This document shows positions 16,165 to 29,820 of a DNA stretch of 64,000 nucleotides, piece by piece. The translations under genes were made by a program, and so were the position numbers. How positions within the stretch are numbered: the stretch's first letter is position 1; each line of letters opens with the position of its first letter. The notes under the pieces were generated by a model, which was not told the origin of the DNA, did not search any database, and worked only from the letters and a program-made list of their open reading frames with translations. Source of the DNA: Oscillospiraceae bacterium (lineage in GTDB: Bacteria > Bacillota > Clostridia > Oscillospirales > Ruminococcaceae); contig JAAVIC010000033.1 of the NCBI GenBank assembly GCA_014799385.1, positions 62,001-126,000 on the forward strand, read 5' to 3'.

Positions 16165-16192
16165 AAGCAACAAAGCATGAAGGAGAATGAAA

Positions 16193-17389: not shown

Positions 17390-18022
17390 ATGGAAAAATC
17401 AAAGGTAAGAATTGCCCTCACCAAGGGAAGAATCGAGGACAAGGCAGTGAATCTCCTCGAAAAAATCGGATATGACGTGTCGGAACTAAGAAACAAGGGC
17501 AGACGGCTGATCCTGTCGATTCCGAACGAGAATATCGAGGTGGTGCTTGCAAAGGCTGCGGACGTTATCACCTATGTGGAGCATGGCGTGTGCGACTTGG
17601 GCGTGGTCGGCAAGGACACAATTATGGAGCACGGCGGAAAGTTTTTCGAGATTGCGGATCTGGGATTCGGAAAGTGCAAATTCGCGCTCGCCGTAAAGAA
17701 CGGCAGCAAGTTCTATGACGGCTGCGGGGTAAAGACCGTTGCCACGAAATATCCCGCTGTTACACGTAATTTCTTTGAGTCAAAGGGCATTGACGTTGAC
17801 ATTGTGAAAATTGAGGGTTCTGTGGAGCTTGCCCCGTTGGTGGGATTATCGGATGGTATTGTGGACATCGTGGAAACGGGTACAACGCTTAAAGAAAACG
17901 GACTTGAAGTTTACGATGACGTTGCGTATATTTCTGCGCGGCTTATCGTGAATACCGTAAGTATGAAGCTGAAGCAAGAGAGAATTTCGGAGATTGTAAG
18001 ACTTATTGAGGAGAATTTGTGA
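17390..18022 (+). CDS. hisG: ATP phosphoribosyltransferase, short form
   Basis: Catalyses the first step of histidine synthesis, joining PRPP and ATP. At 210 residues it lacks the C-terminal regulatory domain of long HisG, which agrees with the adjacent hisZ. Motifs visible are IALTKGRIEDKAVNLLEK, DLGVVGKDTIMEHG and the PRPP loop region GLSDGIVDIVETGTTLKENG. The start follows GAGGAGGTG, and the stop TGA overlaps the hisD ATG by one base. Confidence 0.97.
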   Translation: MEKSKVRIALTKGRIEDKAVNLLEKIGYDVSELRNKGRRLILSIPNENIEVVLAKAADVITYVEHGVCDLGVVGKDTIMEHGGKFFEIADLGFGKCKFALAVKNGSKFYDGCGVKTVATKYPAVTRNFFESKGIDVDIVKIEGSVELAPLVGLSDGIVDIVETGTTLKENGLEVYDDVAYISARLIVNTVSMKLKQERISEIVRLIEENL

Positions 18023-19319: not shown

Positions 19320-19916
19320 ATGAGCAGAACAGCGGAAATCAGCAGAAAAACCAAAGAAACCGACATCACTGTGAAGTTAAATCTTGATGGTGACCCGAGC
19401 CGGGCTGGCGGAGAGGTTAATATCAAGACCGGGATAGGATTCCTCGACCATATGCTCACCGCGCTTGGAGTTCACGGCGGATTCGGGCTGGAGGTGTTTT
19501 GTAAGGGCGATTTGCACGTTGACGGACACCACACTGCCGAGGACATTGGAATCGTTTTGGGACAAGCGTTCGCAAAGGCACTCGGCGACAAGTCGGGGAT
19601 TATGCGCTATGGAAGCGCGTTTATCCCGATGGACGAATCGTTGGGATTTTGCTCTCTTGACATCAGCGCGCGTTCGTTTCTTGTATTTAATGCGGAATTC
19701 AGCAATGAGCGCGTGGGAGAGTTCGACACCTGCCTTACCGAGGAGTTTATGAGAGCGTTTGCTTTCAACGCGGGAATTACACTTCATTTACGTGCGGAAT
19801 ATGGCTCTAACGATCATCACAAAATTGAAGCGCTGTTCAAGGCACTGGCATATGCGTTGAAGCAAGCGGTTAAACCGAATGATGGTGGTGTAATCTCCAC
19901 AAAGGGTACGATATGA
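19320..19916 (+). CDS. hisB: Imidazoleglycerol-phosphate dehydratase
   Basis: Dehydrates IGP to imidazole-acetol phosphate with manganese. The monofunctional 198-residue form carries the duplicated metal-binding motifs: HHTAEDIGIVLGQAF near residue 63 and DHHKIEALFKALAYAL near 163, with GIGFLDHMLTALGVHG between. There is no fused phosphatase domain, so histidinol-phosphate phosphatase must be supplied elsewhere. The stop overlaps the following gene by four bases (ATGA). Confidence 0.97.
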   Translation: MSRTAEISRKTKETDITVKLNLDGDPSRAGGEVNIKTGIGFLDHMLTALGVHGGFGLEVFCKGDLHVDGHHTAEDIGIVLGQAFAKALGDKSGIMRYGSAFIPMDESLGFCSLDISARSFLVFNAEFSNERVGEFDTCLTEEFMRAFAFNAGITLHLRAEYGSNDHHKIEALFKALAYALKQAVKPNDGGVISTKGTI

Positions 19917-20458: not shown

Positions 20459-21049
20459 ATGATTGCGATTATAGATTATGGTGCGGGGAATCTGTTCAGC
20501 GTGAAGAACGCATTGGATTTTCTCGGTTTTGAGAACAAGATAACCAAATCTGCGGACGATTTGCGTTCTGCGGACAGGCTGATTCTGCCCGGAGTGGGCG
20601 CGTTCCCAGACGCAATGAGAATGCTGAATGAGAGCGGCTTGGTTGGTGTTATCAAGGAAGAAGTGCAGAAAAAACCGCTGCTTGGGATTTGCCTTGGTAT
20701 GCAAATGCTGTTCGAGAAAGGCTATGAGTTCGGCGAAACTGACGGTTTGGGCTTGATAAAAGGCTCGGTTAAGCTGATGAGGCCCGAAAATCTTCCGATT
20801 CCGCATATCGGGTGGAACGAACTTGAACTCAACGAGAAATGTCCGTTGCTGGACAAAAACAACGAATATGTGTATTTTGTGCACTCCTACGCGGCGGAAT
20901 GCCCCTCGGAGAACGTTGCCGCATATTGCGACTACGGAATGAAGATTCCCGCGCTGGTGTTCAATGGGAACGTTTACGGATCGCAATTCCACCCGGAAAA
21001 AAGCGGCGAGGTCGGCTTGAATATTCTGCGGAGGTTCGAGGCATTATGA
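20459..21049 (+). CDS. hisH: Imidazole glycerol phosphate synthase, glutaminase subunit
   Basis: Hydrolyses glutamine and channels ammonia to HisF. It is a class I glutamine amidotransferase of 196 residues with the nucleophile Cys78 in LLGICLGMQMLF, and the His-Glu pair in GSQFHPEKSGEVG near residues 179-181. The N-terminus IIDYGAGNLFSVKNAL is typical. The stop shares ATGA with the macrodomain gene downstream. Confidence 0.97.
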   Translation: MIAIIDYGAGNLFSVKNALDFLGFENKITKSADDLRSADRLILPGVGAFPDAMRMLNESGLVGVIKEEVQKKPLLGICLGMQMLFEKGYEFGETDGLGLIKGSVKLMRPENLPIPHIGWNELELNEKCPLLDKNNEYVYFVHSYAAECPSENVAAYCDYGMKIPALVFNGNVYGSQFHPEKSGEVGLNILRRFEAL

Positions 21050-21477
21050 CATTTTCCGAGATTCAAGGTGATCTGTTTACGCGAACCGATTGTGCGTTGT
21101 GTCACTGCATAAGCTCCGATTTTGCGCTCGGAGCGGGGATTGCCAAAAAGTTCGCGCAAATGGGTGTGAAAAAGCAGCTCCGCGAGAGTTTCACGAGTGA
21201 GTGGCAGGGAAGCGGATACTGTTTGGTAACCGAAACAAACGGTGTTGTTGTGGGAAATCTGGTTACAAAACAGCGGTATTTTCATAAGCCGACGCTTGAA
21301 ACCCTCCGTCAAGCACTGGAGGATTTTCGGGAACACGCTCTCCAATACGGACTTCGCAAAATTGCCATGCCCAAAATCGGCTGCGGTCTGGACAAACTGC
21401 AATGGGAGGACGTTCGGGAGATTATTCAAGATGTTCTGAAAGATACTGATTTTGAGGTTTTCGTGTATTACCTGTGA
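21046..21477 (+). CDS. TARG1/OARD1-like macrodomain (ADP-ribose ester hydrolase)
   Basis: A single macrodomain of 143 residues. From memory it follows human TARG1/OARD1 closely: GDLF at 8-11, HCIS...GAGIAKKF at 20-36, TKQRYFHKPT at 74-83, and MPKIGCGLDKLQWEDV at 108-123. The TARG1 catalytic lysine and aspartate appear conserved as Lys75 and Asp116. TARG1 enzymes remove ADP-ribose from glutamate and from O-acetyl-ADP-ribose. ATG 21046 overlaps the hisH stop by four bases. Its reason for sitting in a histidine operon is not evident; no DarT-like toxin is adjacent. Confidence 0.9.
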   Translation: MTFSEIQGDLFTRTDCALCHCISSDFALGAGIAKKFAQMGVKKQLRESFTSEWQGSGYCLVTETNGVVVGNLVTKQRYFHKPTLETLRQALEDFREHALQYGLRKIAMPKIGCGLDKLQWEDVREIIQDVLKDTDFEVFVYYL

Positions 21478-24146: not shown

Positions 24147-24869
24147 ATGGTTATTTTACCCGCAATTGATATTAAGGACGGAAACTGCGTGCGGCTGTTT
24201 AGGGGCGATTACGCGACTGCCGAAAAGGTTGCCGACAACTATCTGGATACCGCGCTGTCGTTTGAAAAAGCAGGCGCGGAATGGATTCATATGGTGGATC
24301 TGGACGGCGCGAAAGAGGGCAGACCCGTCAACACGAAAATCTACACCGATGTTGCTGAGAAAACCTCGCTGAAGGTGGAGCTGGGCGGCGGAATCCGCAG
24401 TCTTGAAACCATTGAAGAGTACTTGAAGATGGGGATTTCCCGCGTGATTTTAGGTTCGGCGGCATTGAAAAATCCGAAGTTGGTGAGCAATTCCGTGGAG
24501 AAATTCGGCGCGGAGAAAATCGTTGTCGGAATCGACGCGAAAAACGGTATGGTGGCGACCGAGGGCTGGCTTGAAACCTCAAACGTGAATTACATCGACC
24601 TTGCCAACAAGATGATTTCCTATGGAGTGAAATACTTCATTTTCACGGACATCTCTAAAGACGGAACGCTTTCCGGAGTAAACGCAGAGCAGCTTAAAGC
24701 GTTGTATTACGGTACTCGCGGTGAGTGTAATATAATCGCAAGCGGCGGAGTACACACAATCGAAGATATCCGAATCTGTAAGGAAATGGGATTGTACGGC
24801 ACGATATGCGGAAAGAGCATCTATTCGGGCAGCCTTGACCTTGCCGAGGCAATAGAGCTTGCCAAATAA
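24147..24869 (+). CDS. hisA: ProFAR isomerase
   Basis: Opens the ring of ProFAR to PRFAR, the substrate of HisF. A TIM barrel of 240 residues with catalytic Asp8 in VILPAIDIKDGNCVRL and the second aspartate in FTDISKDGTLSG, plus phosphate-binding GGGIRSLE and ASGGVHTIEDI motifs. The ATG follows GAGG. The next gene begins 10 bases after its stop, with the RBS overlapping the stop region. Confidence 0.97.
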   Translation: MVILPAIDIKDGNCVRLFRGDYATAEKVADNYLDTALSFEKAGAEWIHMVDLDGAKEGRPVNTKIYTDVAEKTSLKVELGGGIRSLETIEEYLKMGISRVILGSAALKNPKLVSNSVEKFGAEKIVVGIDAKNGMVATEGWLETSNVNYIDLANKMISYGVKYFIFTDISKDGTLSGVNAEQLKALYYGTRGECNIIASGGVHTIEDIRICKEMGLYGTICGKSIYSGSLDLAEAIELAK

Positions 24870-25283: not shown

Positions 25284-26045
25284 ATGCTTGCAAAAAGAAT
25301 TATTCCGTGCCTTGATGTGCGGAACGGAAAAGTGGTTAAGGGAGTAAATTTCCAGGGCGTAAAGGATGTTGGCGACCCTGTGGAGCTTGCGATTGAGTAT
25401 AACAAACAGGGCGCGGATGAACTGGTGTTCTATGATATTACCGCGTCATATGAGGGACGCGGAGTGATGCTGGACGTTGTAAAGCGGACAGCGCAGAACG
25501 TCTTTGTTCCGTTGTGCGTGGGCGGTGGAATTTCCTCGGTGGAGGATTTCCGCGATACGCTGAGAGCAGGCGCGGACAAGGTTTCCGTGAACTCCCAGGC
25601 TGTTAAAAATCCCAAGCTGATAAGCGATGCGGCGGAAATTTTCGGCAGCCAATGCGTGGTTGTCGGAATTGACGCAAAGCGTAACGGCAAGGGCGGGTAT
25701 TCCGTGTATATAAACGGCGGACGCGTTGATATGAATCTTGATTTGGGCGATTGGGTAAAGGAGATTTCCGAGCGCGGCGCGGGTGAAATTTGCCTGAACT
25801 CGATAGATACGGACGGAGTGCGCGGCGGATTCGACGTCGAAATGCTGAACTACGTCTGCGAGCGCGTGACGATTCCCGTAATCGCGAGCGGCGGCTGCGG
25901 CTCGATAAATCACTTCTCGGAGGTGTTCGAGAAAACAAATTCCTCGGCGGCATTGGCGGCGTCGCTGTTCCATTTCAAAGAGCTTACAGTAGGCGAGGTA
26001 AAGGAGCATTTGAAAGCGCATAATGTTTCTGTGAGAACGATTTAG
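25284..26045 (+). CDS. hisF: Imidazole glycerol phosphate synthase, cyclase subunit
   Basis: Forms IGP and AICAR from PRFAR and ammonia supplied by HisH. A 253-residue TIM barrel with catalytic Asp11 in [15 protein letters not shown] and Asp about 130 in AKRNG-containing and [13 protein letters not shown] regions. The phosphate sites [11 protein letters not shown] and [11 protein letters not shown] are intact. The start follows AAAGGAGAAAAC. The DUF4253 gene starts 9 bases downstream. Confidence 0.97.
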
Positions 26046-26810: not shown

Positions 26811-26820
26811 GGTGGCGGTT

Positions 26821-27492
26821 GTGAAAATCATTATTATTAACGGAAGTCTGCGGAAAAACGGAGCAACTGCATACATACTTCACCGAATTGAGAAAACGCT
26901 TTTGGAGCAAGGCACAGAGGTTGTGTTTTACAATCTTGTCGAGCAGAATATTGCTCTGTGTAAGGGTTGCTGTGTTTGCTACAAATCGGGCGAATGTGTG
27001 ATTGACGATGACGCTGAGAAAATATCGCGGGAGCTTGAATCTGCCGACGGCATTGTGCTTGGCTCGTCCACAATTGCCAGCAATGTTTCGGCAGTGATGA
27101 AAATGTTTATTGACAGAGGTCATTTTGTAATCGAGCAGCTTTTGTACAAAAAATATGCGTTGTGTGTTACGACATATGAGAACTATGGCGGCAAAACGGC
27201 TCTTAAAGTTTTAACGGACCTTGTGAAATTATCGGGAGCGGCGGTTTGCGGTTCGATTTCGGCAAAAATTCCGTTTAACGCGAAATGTGCCGATATTCCG
27301 ATGTTGAGCGTCAAAGCGGACAAATGCGCGGAAAAACTGTATTCAAGCATTAAACGCAAAAAACTTTATCCGCTGCAAAGGATTTTTCAAACAATTGCCG
27401 CGAATGTCGGAATAAAACCGCTTATCAAGCGTAAGGGTTCGGCTTATGAGGCGGTCAGCCGAAGATGGAAAGAATTGGGGGCATTGAAATGA
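26821..27492 (+). CDS. Flavodoxin-fold FMN oxidoreductase with C-terminal extension
   Basis: A second FMN-reductase-like protein, 223 residues. Its start is GTG 26821 after GGTGG; GTG 26812 is also in frame. The loop [16 protein letters not shown], the cysteine cluster [13 protein letters not shown] and [20 protein letters not shown] define the family. After about residue 180 it has a basic tail ([20 protein letters not shown]) that could be a membrane-associating helix; this is inference. It overlaps the NUDIX-HisI gene by ATGA. Confidence 0.85.
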
Positions 27493-28208
27493 ATGTTGAA
27501 ATTCCCGAAACATACAAGGACAGCGAACTGAAATATGCCGTAATCCTTGCGAAATACAACGGAAAATATGTCTTTGTAAAGCATAGAGAGCGTGAAACGT
27601 TGGAAATCCCCGGCGGTCATCGCGAACCGGGCGAGAACATCGCCGAAACCGCTGCTCGTGAGCTATACGAGGAAACGGGCGCGGTAAAATATTCCTTGCG
27701 GCAGATTTGCCCGTATAAAGTGAACGACCTCGGAATGTTGTTCTATGCGGAAATCACCGAGTTTGGAGAACTGCCGCAGTCCGAGATTGAAAAGGTGTTT
27801 TTGCTTGACGAACTGCCAAAGGAGCTTTCGCAGTGGACATATCCCGAGATTCAGCCGTTTTTGCGTGAAAAAATTGAAAGTGAGATAAGCAATATGGATT
27901 TGAAGAAGCATTTCAAGAAGTCGGAGTTAATCCCCGCAATCATTCAGGACGCGGAGAACGGCGAGGTGCTTATGCTTGCGTATATGAACGAGGAGAGCCT
28001 TGCTAAGACGCTGGAAACGGGTTACACGTGGTTCTGGAGCCGTTCGCGTCAAGAACTTTGGAACAAGGGCGCGACATCGGGTCACTTCCAGAAGGTGATC
28101 GAGATTTACGGTGACTGCGATGATGACACACTGCTCATCAAGGTGGAGCAGACAGGCGCGGCATGCCATACCGGAAACAGAACGTGCTTTTTTAATAGGA
28201 TAAAGTAA
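27489..28208 (+). CDS. hisI: NUDIX hydrolase fused to phosphoribosyl-AMP cyclohydrolase (HisI)
   Basis: A 239-residue two-domain protein. Residues 1-130 are a complete NUDIX hydrolase with Nudix box G43-x5-E49-x7-REL-YEETGA (to 65). Residues 136-239 are a complete [36 protein letters not shown], metal site DCDDD at 209-213 and zinc ligands Cys226-His227 and Cys233. HisI opens the adenine ring of PR-AMP. Met136 (ATG 27894) is where a stand-alone HisI would start, preceded only by a weak AAAGTGAG, so separate translation is possible. The NUDIX substrate is unknown; HisE is encoded separately downstream. Confidence 0.93.
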
Positions 28209-28804
28209 TGGAAACAAATACTATATTTACCCGAAGAAGCATACGTAAGTTTGTTAAGCGCGAGCTGCCTATAAATCTTATCAATGAGATGTTAAACTCC
28301 GCGAGAATGGCTCCCTCCGCGAAAAACAGGCAGCCGTGGAGGTTTGTTGTTTTCGGCGGAGAGTATAAGGCGGAGCTTGAACGATGTATGGAGCGAGGTT
28401 TGATCAGAGAGGAATCGGGCGTTTCGGTTTTGCCGCGATCACGTTTTGGACTTCCCGATGCGAAAAACACCCTTAAAATTATAAGAGAAGCTCCGATACT
28501 TATCATTATCATAAACTCCAACGGAAGTTCTCCCTTTGTTCCTATTGACAGTGATGACCGTGTTACGGAGATATGCGATACGCTGTCGATAGGCGCGGCG
28601 GTTCAGAATATGCTGCTGACGGCGGAGCGTTTGGGTTTGGGAACATTGTGGATAGCCAACACCTGTTTCGCATATCCCGAACTGACTGAATTTCTGAAAA
28701 TCGATGGGCAATTAATTGGTGCTGTAGCTGTGGGATACCCAAATGAAAATCCGCCGGAGCGCTCCCGCAAAAGCATTGATGAAATATCCGAATTTAGAGT
28801 TTGA
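28208..28804 (+). CDS. Nitroreductase family protein
   Basis: A 198-residue FMN-dependent nitroreductase-fold protein. The N-terminal FTRRSIRKFVKRELP and ARMAPSAKNRQPWRFVV segments are the canonical FMN-binding start, and IGAAVQNMLLTAERLGLGTLWI is the conserved central helix. It ends with VAVGYPNENPPER. The substrate is unknown. It overlaps the hisI stop by one base (TAATG), so it is coupled to it, but has no known role in histidine synthesis. Confidence 0.92.
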   Translation: METNTIFTRRSIRKFVKRELPINLINEMLNSARMAPSAKNRQPWRFVVFGGEYKAELERCMERGLIREESGVSVLPRSRFGLPDAKNTLKIIREAPILIIIINSNGSSPFVPIDSDDRVTEICDTLSIGAAVQNMLLTAERLGLGTLWIANTCFAYPELTEFLKIDGQLIGAVAVGYPNENPPERSRKSIDEISEFRV

Positions 28805-28873: not shown

Positions 28874-29497
28874 ATGAGTAAAGGTTTAACATTGCTTTAC
28901 GGTACGGGAAATCCCGCGAAGCTTCAAGTAATGAGAGAAACTTTAAGTTCGCTCAATTTGGAGATAATCGGTTTGGGGGATATGGACAAAGCTCCGCCCG
29001 AAGTTGCTGAAAACGGTAACGATCCGTTGGAAAATGCATACGAAAAGGCGATGGCTTATTACCGATTCTACGGCATTCCCGTGTTTTCGTGTGATAGCGG
29101 TCTGTATTTTGACAACGTTCCCGATGAGGAGCAGCCCGGAATCCACGTTCGGAATATCGGAGGAAAACGGCTTTCCGATTCCGAGATGATCATATATTAC
29201 GGACTGAAAGCAATGGAATACGGCGGAAAGCTGACTGCGCGCTACAAAAACGCGATCTGCCTTGTTTTATCGGAGAACGAAATCCATAAGAGCATGGACG
29301 AGAGCCTTTGGGGCAAACCGTTCTACATAGTCGGCAAGCCGCACGAAAAGCGTGTGGAGGGATTTCCGATCGACAGTCTTTCGGTTGATATTTCAAGCGG
29401 AAAATATTGCTATGATTTGCCCGAAACCACGCAAAAACACTATGTCGAGGGCTTTGGAAACTTTTTTGAAAATGCGTTAAAGGAGAAATTGCTATGA
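28874..29497 (+). CDS. HAM1/RdgB-like nucleotide pyrophosphatase
   Basis: A 207-residue protein of the ITPase/RdgB fold that in known members hydrolyses inosine and xanthosine triphosphates. LLYGTGNPAKLQVMRETL corresponds to the usual SxNxxK start, and FSCDSGLYFDNVPDEEQPG to the DDSGL metal region; the C-terminus GFPIDSLSV replaces the usual FGYDPIF. It is therefore a divergent family member. The start ATG 28874 lacks a well-spaced RBS and directly abuts a promoter -10 element; an in-frame TTG at 28844 is an alternative. It overlaps hisE by ATGA. Confidence 0.8.
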   Translation: MSKGLTLLYGTGNPAKLQVMRETLSSLNLEIIGLGDMDKAPPEVAENGNDPLENAYEKAMAYYRFYGIPVFSCDSGLYFDNVPDEEQPGIHVRNIGGKRLSDSEMIIYYGLKAMEYGGKLTARYKNAICLVLSENEIHKSMDESLWGKPFYIVGKPHEKRVEGFPIDSLSVDISSGKYCYDLPETTQKHYVEGFGNFFENALKEKLL

Positions 29498-29820
29498 GTG
29501 AAGCGTTTAAGGAGATGTATGATGTGATTGTCAATCGCCGCGACAATCCGCAGGAGGGCAGCTACACCTGCTATCTGTTCGATAAGGGGCTTGATAAAAT
29601 CCTCAAGAAGTGCGGCGAAGAGTGCACCGAGATGGTAATCGCTGCGAAAAATCACGACAATGACGAGCTTGCCAACGAAATCAACGACTTGTTTTATCAC
29701 GTTGCGGTTTTGATGGTGGAAAATGGACTTACCGTAGAGGAGGTCGATGAGATCATGCGTGAGCGCAGTAAGAAAATCGGCAACCTTAAACAGTTCCACA
29801 CGAGCGACCACAATACATAA
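29494..29820 (+). CDS. hisE: Phosphoribosyl-ATP pyrophosphatase
   Basis: Removes pyrophosphate from PR-ATP, the second step of histidine synthesis. A 108-residue MazG-like four-helix protein with ILKKCGEECTEMVIAAKN and ELANEINDLFYHVAVLMVE carrying the acidic metal ligands. It is separate from hisI here, whereas many bacteria fuse hisI and hisE. Overlaps the HAM1-like gene by four bases. Confidence 0.96.
   Translation: MSEAFKEMYDVIVNRRDNPQEGSYTCYLFDKGLDKILKKCGEECTEMVIAAKNHDNDELANEINDLFYHVAVLMVENGLTVEEVDEIMRERSKKIGNLKQFHTSDHNT

Follow-up and report, generated by a model that had tools for sequence, protein, structure and literature searches.

A NUDIX domain fused to HisI in the histidine operon of one genus of uncultured Clostridia

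Fusions of HisI, with HisIE as the example, have served as a standard instance of gene fusion that makes metabolic sense, and the window described here (the whole stretch of 64,000 nucleotides of Oscillospiraceae DNA that was analysed) carries a hisI gene that, in one genus, is fused to an enzyme without a known place in the histidine pathway. Relatives in which the Nudix part is fused, separate and degenerate, or absent form a small natural series on which the question can be put whether such a joining reflects a functional link or mere gene order. The comparisons presented below point, with moderate confidence, to an active housekeeping Nudix hydrolase that was fused to HisI by read-through within the operon, without adding a new step to the pathway.

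The fused gene and its operon

The gene (Table 1) is predicted to give one two-domain protein. Its N-terminal half matches the Pfam NUDIX family with an E-value of 7.3e-11 (42.7 bits, cut-off 21.1) and contains an exact Nudix box, G43-x5-E49-x7-R57-E58-L59-x-E61-E62-x-G64, which fits the pattern GX5EX7REUXEEXGU. The C-terminal half matches PRA-CH (PF01502) with an E-value of 2.3e-37 (127.1 bits, cut-off 27) and scores above the cut-off of the NCBIfam HisI model NF000768 (168.7 bits, cut-off 126), and its residues D209, C210, D211, D213, C226 and C233, which we take to be the DCDxD metal site and the three zinc-site cysteines of HisI, align with the solved HisI 1zps. Like known HisI in score and in metal-site alignment, and differing from it by the added N-terminal Nudix domain, this half is probably an ordinary PR-AMP cyclohydrolase, the enzyme of the third step of histidine synthesis. 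The start at 27489 is the counterpart of the one assigned to the other fused genes; an in-frame ATG eight codons upstream, at 27465, would add eight residues and is at least as good in the pairing of the 16S tail upstream of it (-11.9, compared with -10.2 for 27489). The window genome (2.69 Mb, 33 contigs) has a single match to the fusion at an E-value of 0.001 and five further PF00293 matches.

From their translated frames, we take the his genes of the operon to be hisZ at 16187, hisG at 17390, hisD at 18019 and hisB at 19320, followed, still 5' of the fusion, by hisA at 24147 and hisF at 25284; hisH at 20459 is a Pfam glutamine amidotransferase match. Genes outside the pathway are interspersed among them, identified by Pfam as a macro-domain gene, two FMN-reductase-like genes, a HAD hydrolase, a nitroreductase and a Ham1-like gene. 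The macro-domain gene (21049-21477) lies directly 3' of hisH, occurs also in G062, G020, G027 and G036, and matches the NCBIfam DarG model with an E-value of 1.5e-13, below its cut-off.

Table 1. Features of the fused gene and its neighbours in the window, with loci (L numbers) from other genomes in the last six lines
Feature	Position	Strand	Remarks
NADPH-dependent FMN reductase-like gene, upstream	26812..27492	+	Pfam; 4-base overlap with the start at 27489
NUDIX-HisI fusion gene	27489..28208	+	239 codons plus stop; frame open throughout
NUDIX domain	27537..27824	+	Residues 17-112; Pfam PF00293
Nudix box	27615..27683	+	Residues 43-65
Linker	27849..27893	+	Residues 121-135; weak constraint
AAAGTGAG, possible internal Shine-Dalgarno	27877..27884	+	Translated within the linker; duplex energy -8.9 kcal/mol
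ATG of Met136	27894..27896	+	Start site of stand-alone HisI in relatives; possible internal start
HisI part	27894..28208	+	Pfam PRA-CH at residues 162-235 (27972-28193)
Nitroreductase-family gene, downstream	28208..28804	+	Pfam
Divergent Ham1/RdgB-like gene	28874..29497	+	Pfam; between hisI and hisE
hisE (PR-ATP pyrophosphohydrolase), separate gene	29494..29820	+	PRA-PH E 3.1e-21; catalytic motifs intact
Nudix-subfamily join to another partner, L234	1516-3480		Joins in L234, L226 and L227 include one to a second Nudix domain
Nudix-subfamily join to another partner, L226		-	
Nudix-subfamily join to another partner, L227	249-1079		
Divergent HisI, L152	7049-7327		
Divergent HisI, L153	3441-3698		
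Divergent HisI, L154	7931-8206		

Spread, conservation and origin of the fusion

The single 239-residue frame with a complete Nudix box and a complete PRA-CH domain that the preliminary description reported was correct in coordinates, strand and length, and the in-frame fusion is present in 9 of the 43 genomes of the genus (G000, G062, G019, G020, G014, G029, G023, G027, and G030), the other eight proteins being 80-95% identical to that of the window. The remaining genomes comprise 24 with a standard unfused HisI, three with a divergent HisI and seven without a HisI match at an E-value of 1e-10, among them G009, where only the end of hisI is present at a contig edge. The three divergent HisI proteins (35-37% identity) occupy the same place in the operon, as if replaced. 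A homology search for the spread of the fusion, which had been suggested beforehand, found none beyond the genus members: not among the matches listed (to about E 6e-36) in a family sample of 297 genomes from 126 genera searched at E-values up to 1e-20, nor in order (394 genomes, up to 1e-53), class (391 genomes, up to 1e-58) and phylum (398 genomes, up to 1e-53) samples, which overlap, each contain the window genome, and were searched at thresholds that would miss a fusion to a distant Nudix. Among the loci of the best 80 of 578 relatives, NUDIX is fused to HisI in two (L035 and L036, which are G020 and G014 of the nine), and viral contigs gave no relative. As far as seen, the fusion is thus confined to one genus of uncultured Clostridia. 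A publication on it was not found in the literature searched, which largely left out subscription journals; the word Nudix is absent from the available portion of the main text of a paper on fusions among his genes (PMC1963479), another source, in its accessible part, assigns HisI and Nudix to separate groups within the beta-grasp fold and has no NUDIX-HisI fusion (PMC1949818), and the fusions in the available part of a third are other ones (PMC4921024).

Two findings named in advance as able to undo the fusion were a frameshift error in the assembly and separate genes with a stop codon in close relatives. The first is contradicted by the same open fused frame in nine genomes, and an assembly or sequencing artefact was rejected. 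The second was found in three relatives, which have separate genes with a stop at the junction, but their Nudix box is degenerate; because nine genomes keep the fused frame, the fusion stands. That the two halves are translated separately as two genes draws on those three stops and on the Shine-Dalgarno-like site and ATG that remain in six of the nine fused genes, and together with an artefact it is hardly credible given the shared open frame and the lack of a junction ATG in G030. By sequence comparison, NUDIX-HisI is a genuine combination of two known enzymes that has been kept in evolution.

Both halves are well conserved. All eight Nudix-box, five family and ten HisI residues tested are identical in 9/9 fused proteins, as are D209, C210, D211, D213, C226, and C233, whereas Met136 is found in seven, with the Met of G019 one codon earlier and none in G030. 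Across the 36 pairs of fused genes, pN/pS averages 0.198 in the NUDIX part, 0.40 in the linker and 0.086 in the HisI part, values from which purifying selection is judged to act on the NUDIX and HisI halves alike. The synonymous distance between the fused genes is mostly near saturation, and a fused frame kept for so long exceeds what would be expected from bare accident, which counts against the favoured reading.

In three of the 24 unfused genomes (G004, G015, and G021) a separate Nudix-like gene lies directly upstream of hisI; the first base of its TGA stop is 16-17 bases ahead of the hisI ATG. The other 21 have no Nudix match upstream of hisI at an E-value of 1e-6. The boxes of the three separate genes have lost G43, E58 and E62, read D, D and E at position 61 and keep E49 and R57, and their products are therefore probably inactive. 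Constraint on them is weaker than on the fused genes (pN/pS of the three pairs 0.27, 0.45, and 0.51), but the value of 0.27 between G004 and G015 shows a degenerate box that is still constrained, which suggests a non-catalytic or hisI-related role and again weighs against the favoured reading. Non-catalytic Nudix domains are typically found within multidomain proteins, according to the accessible part of one source (PMC5389931). Both this habit and the three relatives that keep a hisI-adjacent Nudix-like gene without G43, E58 and E62, at a pN/pS of 0.27-0.51, would fit a Nudix part that is mainly a bound domain stabilising or regulating HisI, a reading that is unlikely given that every tested Nudix-box residue is kept in all nine fused proteins.

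A three-residue insertion close to the C terminus, ahead of the T/S-Y/F motif there, is shared by 12/12 hisI-linked Nudix sequences and found in 0/17 stand-alone relatives (19 matches minus two fragments under 120 amino acids), which makes a single origin of the linkage probable. In the Nudix tree the nine fused domains group against the 17 stand-alone ones, with support of 95/88 without and 83/91 with the three separate sequences; a topology holding fused and separate Nudix together was not rejected (p-AU 0.51), a result that does not by itself establish the grouping. Five changes are needed to place the fused state on the PolC tree of 41 genomes, and likewise five on 35 rows; the simplest reading is one origin followed by losses or some transfer within the genus. 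The HisI DNA tree, with few well-supported branches, and the concatenated his tree, with an odd pairing of G004 and G022 that is probably due to missing data, were not relied on. The NUDIX part of G023 is nearest to the G019 clade, whereas the PolC tree puts G023 elsewhere; this conflict may reflect transfer within the genus.

The favoured reading, that of an active housekeeping Nudix hydrolase fused by read-through, would run as follows. Once in the genus, a Nudix gene would have settled directly upstream of hisI; its stop codon would then have been lost or its frame changed, so that translation ran on through the old hisI ribosome-binding region, which became the linker, into the hisI start. 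Later the Nudix part would have been lost in several lineages; in one clade it is a gene of its own, its box degenerate. An origin by read-through is not proven, as fission of an older fusion would give the same picture.

Both partners appear to join readily to others. Stand-alone Nudix relatives within the genus occupy other neighbourhoods, in which a presumably NadB-like gene precedes in G061 and G026 and what we take to be SpoVS-, YmdB- and PurA-like genes lie beside it in G012 and G015. Subfamily relatives in other genera (G068, G051, and G176) are joined to other partners, in G176 to a second Nudix domain, so that the subfamily seems prone to fusion. As for hisI, a continuous HisA-HisI frame was recognised by eye in nine of the best 80 loci of the 578 relatives, and in four of the 80 a HisA/F-like barrel is followed by HisI and about 100 more codons, taken by eye as HisIE. 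The product of HisI is the substrate of HisA, and a HisA-HisI fusion is thus metabolically sensible. In HisA/F-HisIE fusions, as the available part of the source describes them (PMC11237513), and in the HisA-HisI frames, HisI likewise has an N-terminal partner, but that partner is a histidine-pathway enzyme or its lookalike, unlike the Nudix domain here. A fusion-prone Nudix subfamily and a fusion-prone hisI together favour fusion by gene order over a pathway role. As separate observations, Clostridia loci in which a HisA-like frame of about 240 codons runs into HisI without a stop are L049, L051, L054, L055, L056, L061, L064, L072, L082, and L242; an apparently degenerate HisA/HisF-like barrel leads, as judged by eye, into HisI with a HisE-sized tail in the Lachnospiraceae loci L088, L097, L102, and L103, and into HisI without a tail in L099.

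Activity of the Nudix half and a role in the pathway

The best NCBIfam Nudix family for the N-terminal half is TIGR02705 (YtkD), at 54.5 bits far below the equivalog cut-off of 154.4, and the MutT equivalog TIGR00586 gives 21 bits (cut-off 97.9). By profile the closest solved relative is RppH of B. subtilis (BsRppH, 4jzu; E 1.1e-15, the next other protein 3.6e-7). With its box intact, the half is probably a Nudix pyrophosphohydrolase that belongs to a clostridial subfamily with kinship to RppH/YtkD of B. subtilis, from which the window protein differs by the fusion to HisI and by its low equivalog score. A full-length model, built as a monomer from 41 sequences of which three have the Nudix half, reaches pLDDT values of 86-96 in the HisI blocks and 44-70 in the Nudix half, with a low stretch at residues 132-135 between the domains; a fold search with it returned HisI enzymes first and BsRppH as the first Nudix protein (E 0.007), a match from the low-confidence half, and a model of the Nudix half alone had a mean pLDDT of 42.7, too low for use. 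The accessible part of the source names dGTP as an assayed substrate of YTKD_BACSU and mRNA as its physiological substrate (PMC5158307). The Nudix half most likely would have nucleoside triphosphates or the 5' ends of RNA as its substrates and work apart from the histidine pathway. That it acts on PR-ATP or ADP-ribose, as the preliminary description had considered, is no more than a possibility after a comparison in which RppH/YtkD is the nearest characterised relative. An ADP-ribose hydrolase found no support, since ADP-ribose pyrophosphatases score far below BsRppH; given the macro-domain gene in the same operon, an ADP-ribose activity remains conceivable.

Nudix enzymes, like HisE, can cleave between the alpha and beta phosphates. 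The Nudix half might thus be a second PR-ATP pyrophosphohydrolase, and the fusion an analogue of HisIE in which joining to the next enzyme would channel PR-AMP to HisI. HisIE (6j22, 7bgm; NF002747) also combines HisI with a nucleotide pyrophosphohydrolase, but its HisE part has an unrelated all-alpha fold and is C-terminal, whereas the fusion described here has a Nudix partner at its N terminus and leaves hisE as a gene apart; NF002747 gives 163.3 bits, over the HisI part only, against a cut-off of 187. All of the fused operons (9/9) have hisE as a gene of its own with its motifs intact, so that the Nudix part does not replace HisE, in line with the earlier view that it was no obvious replacement; replacement was rejected as the main reading. 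As 21 relatives moreover have hisI and hisE without an adjacent Nudix match and three with a degenerate one, an analogue of HisIE is very unlikely.

The divergent Ham1-like gene stands between hisI and hisE in 11/12 NUDIX-linked operons (all except G021) compared with 0/21 others (Fisher p 6e-8, ignoring descent). Once descent is allowed for, 4-5 of 5 independent pairs follow the association and none runs counter to it (sign test p 0.0625-0.125). This company hints that the two act together within the his operon, against the favoured reading, and the association could be hitchhiking or a functional pair. As a damage-control pair, NUDIX-HisI and the Ham1-like protein would remove damaged ATP or PR-ATP before or after HisG, the Nudix half taking oxidised ATP and the Ham1-like enzyme deaminated or otherwise altered ATP or PR-ATP. 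Histidine synthesis consumes the adenine ring of ATP and incorporates it into its product, so that removal of damaged nucleotides would protect the pathway, and both classes are nucleotide pyrophosphohydrolases. Such a pair offers a specific hypothesis of how histidine synthesis might be guarded against damaged nucleotides. The C-terminal part of the Ham1-like protein carries a G(F/Y)P(L/I)D motif and is presumably a departure from the usual Ham1/RdgB motif. That unlikeness speaks against the pair, as do a sign test that does not reach 0.05, the 21 operons without either gene, the chance that the two genes just travel as one piece, and four genomes with a Ham1-like gene outside the his operon, around which no his-operon gene was found in the four stretches; its neighbour in G008 looks to us like uvrB. 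A Nudix domain is also joined to a biosynthetic enzyme in the Tnr3/Nudix fusion of thiamin metabolism, which the available part of the source lists as a case of this kind with a pyrophosphatase function, citing a reference titled damage pre-emption (PMC4921024). On balance, damage control by such a pair is rather unlikely.

A possible second product from the junction

The Met at the junction noted in the preliminary description is indeed present in the window protein, and internal initiation there, raised as a possibility, is consistent with the duplex energies. The energy of -8.9 kcal/mol at the window junction lies within the range of 24 stand-alone hisI starts (-5.7 to -10.2), while 25 internal ATG codons of the his genes of the window, used as a control, have a mean of -4.5 (sd 2.6, lowest -11.8). 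In G000, G062, G019, G020, G014, and G029 AAAGTGAG or a version that differs by one base lies in the linker, 6-9 bases ahead of an ATG, and the duplex energies are between -7.2 and -11.2 kcal/mol, so that the linker resembles a ribosome site that has come to be translated; values elsewhere are -4.4 in G023, -3.9 in G027, and -4.8 in G030. In G030, which lacks the junction ATG, HisI would need the fused form or a weaker start. Judged from these sites, a second, HisI-only product from an internal start is possible in six of the nine fused genes, including that of the window species, where it would begin at Met136.
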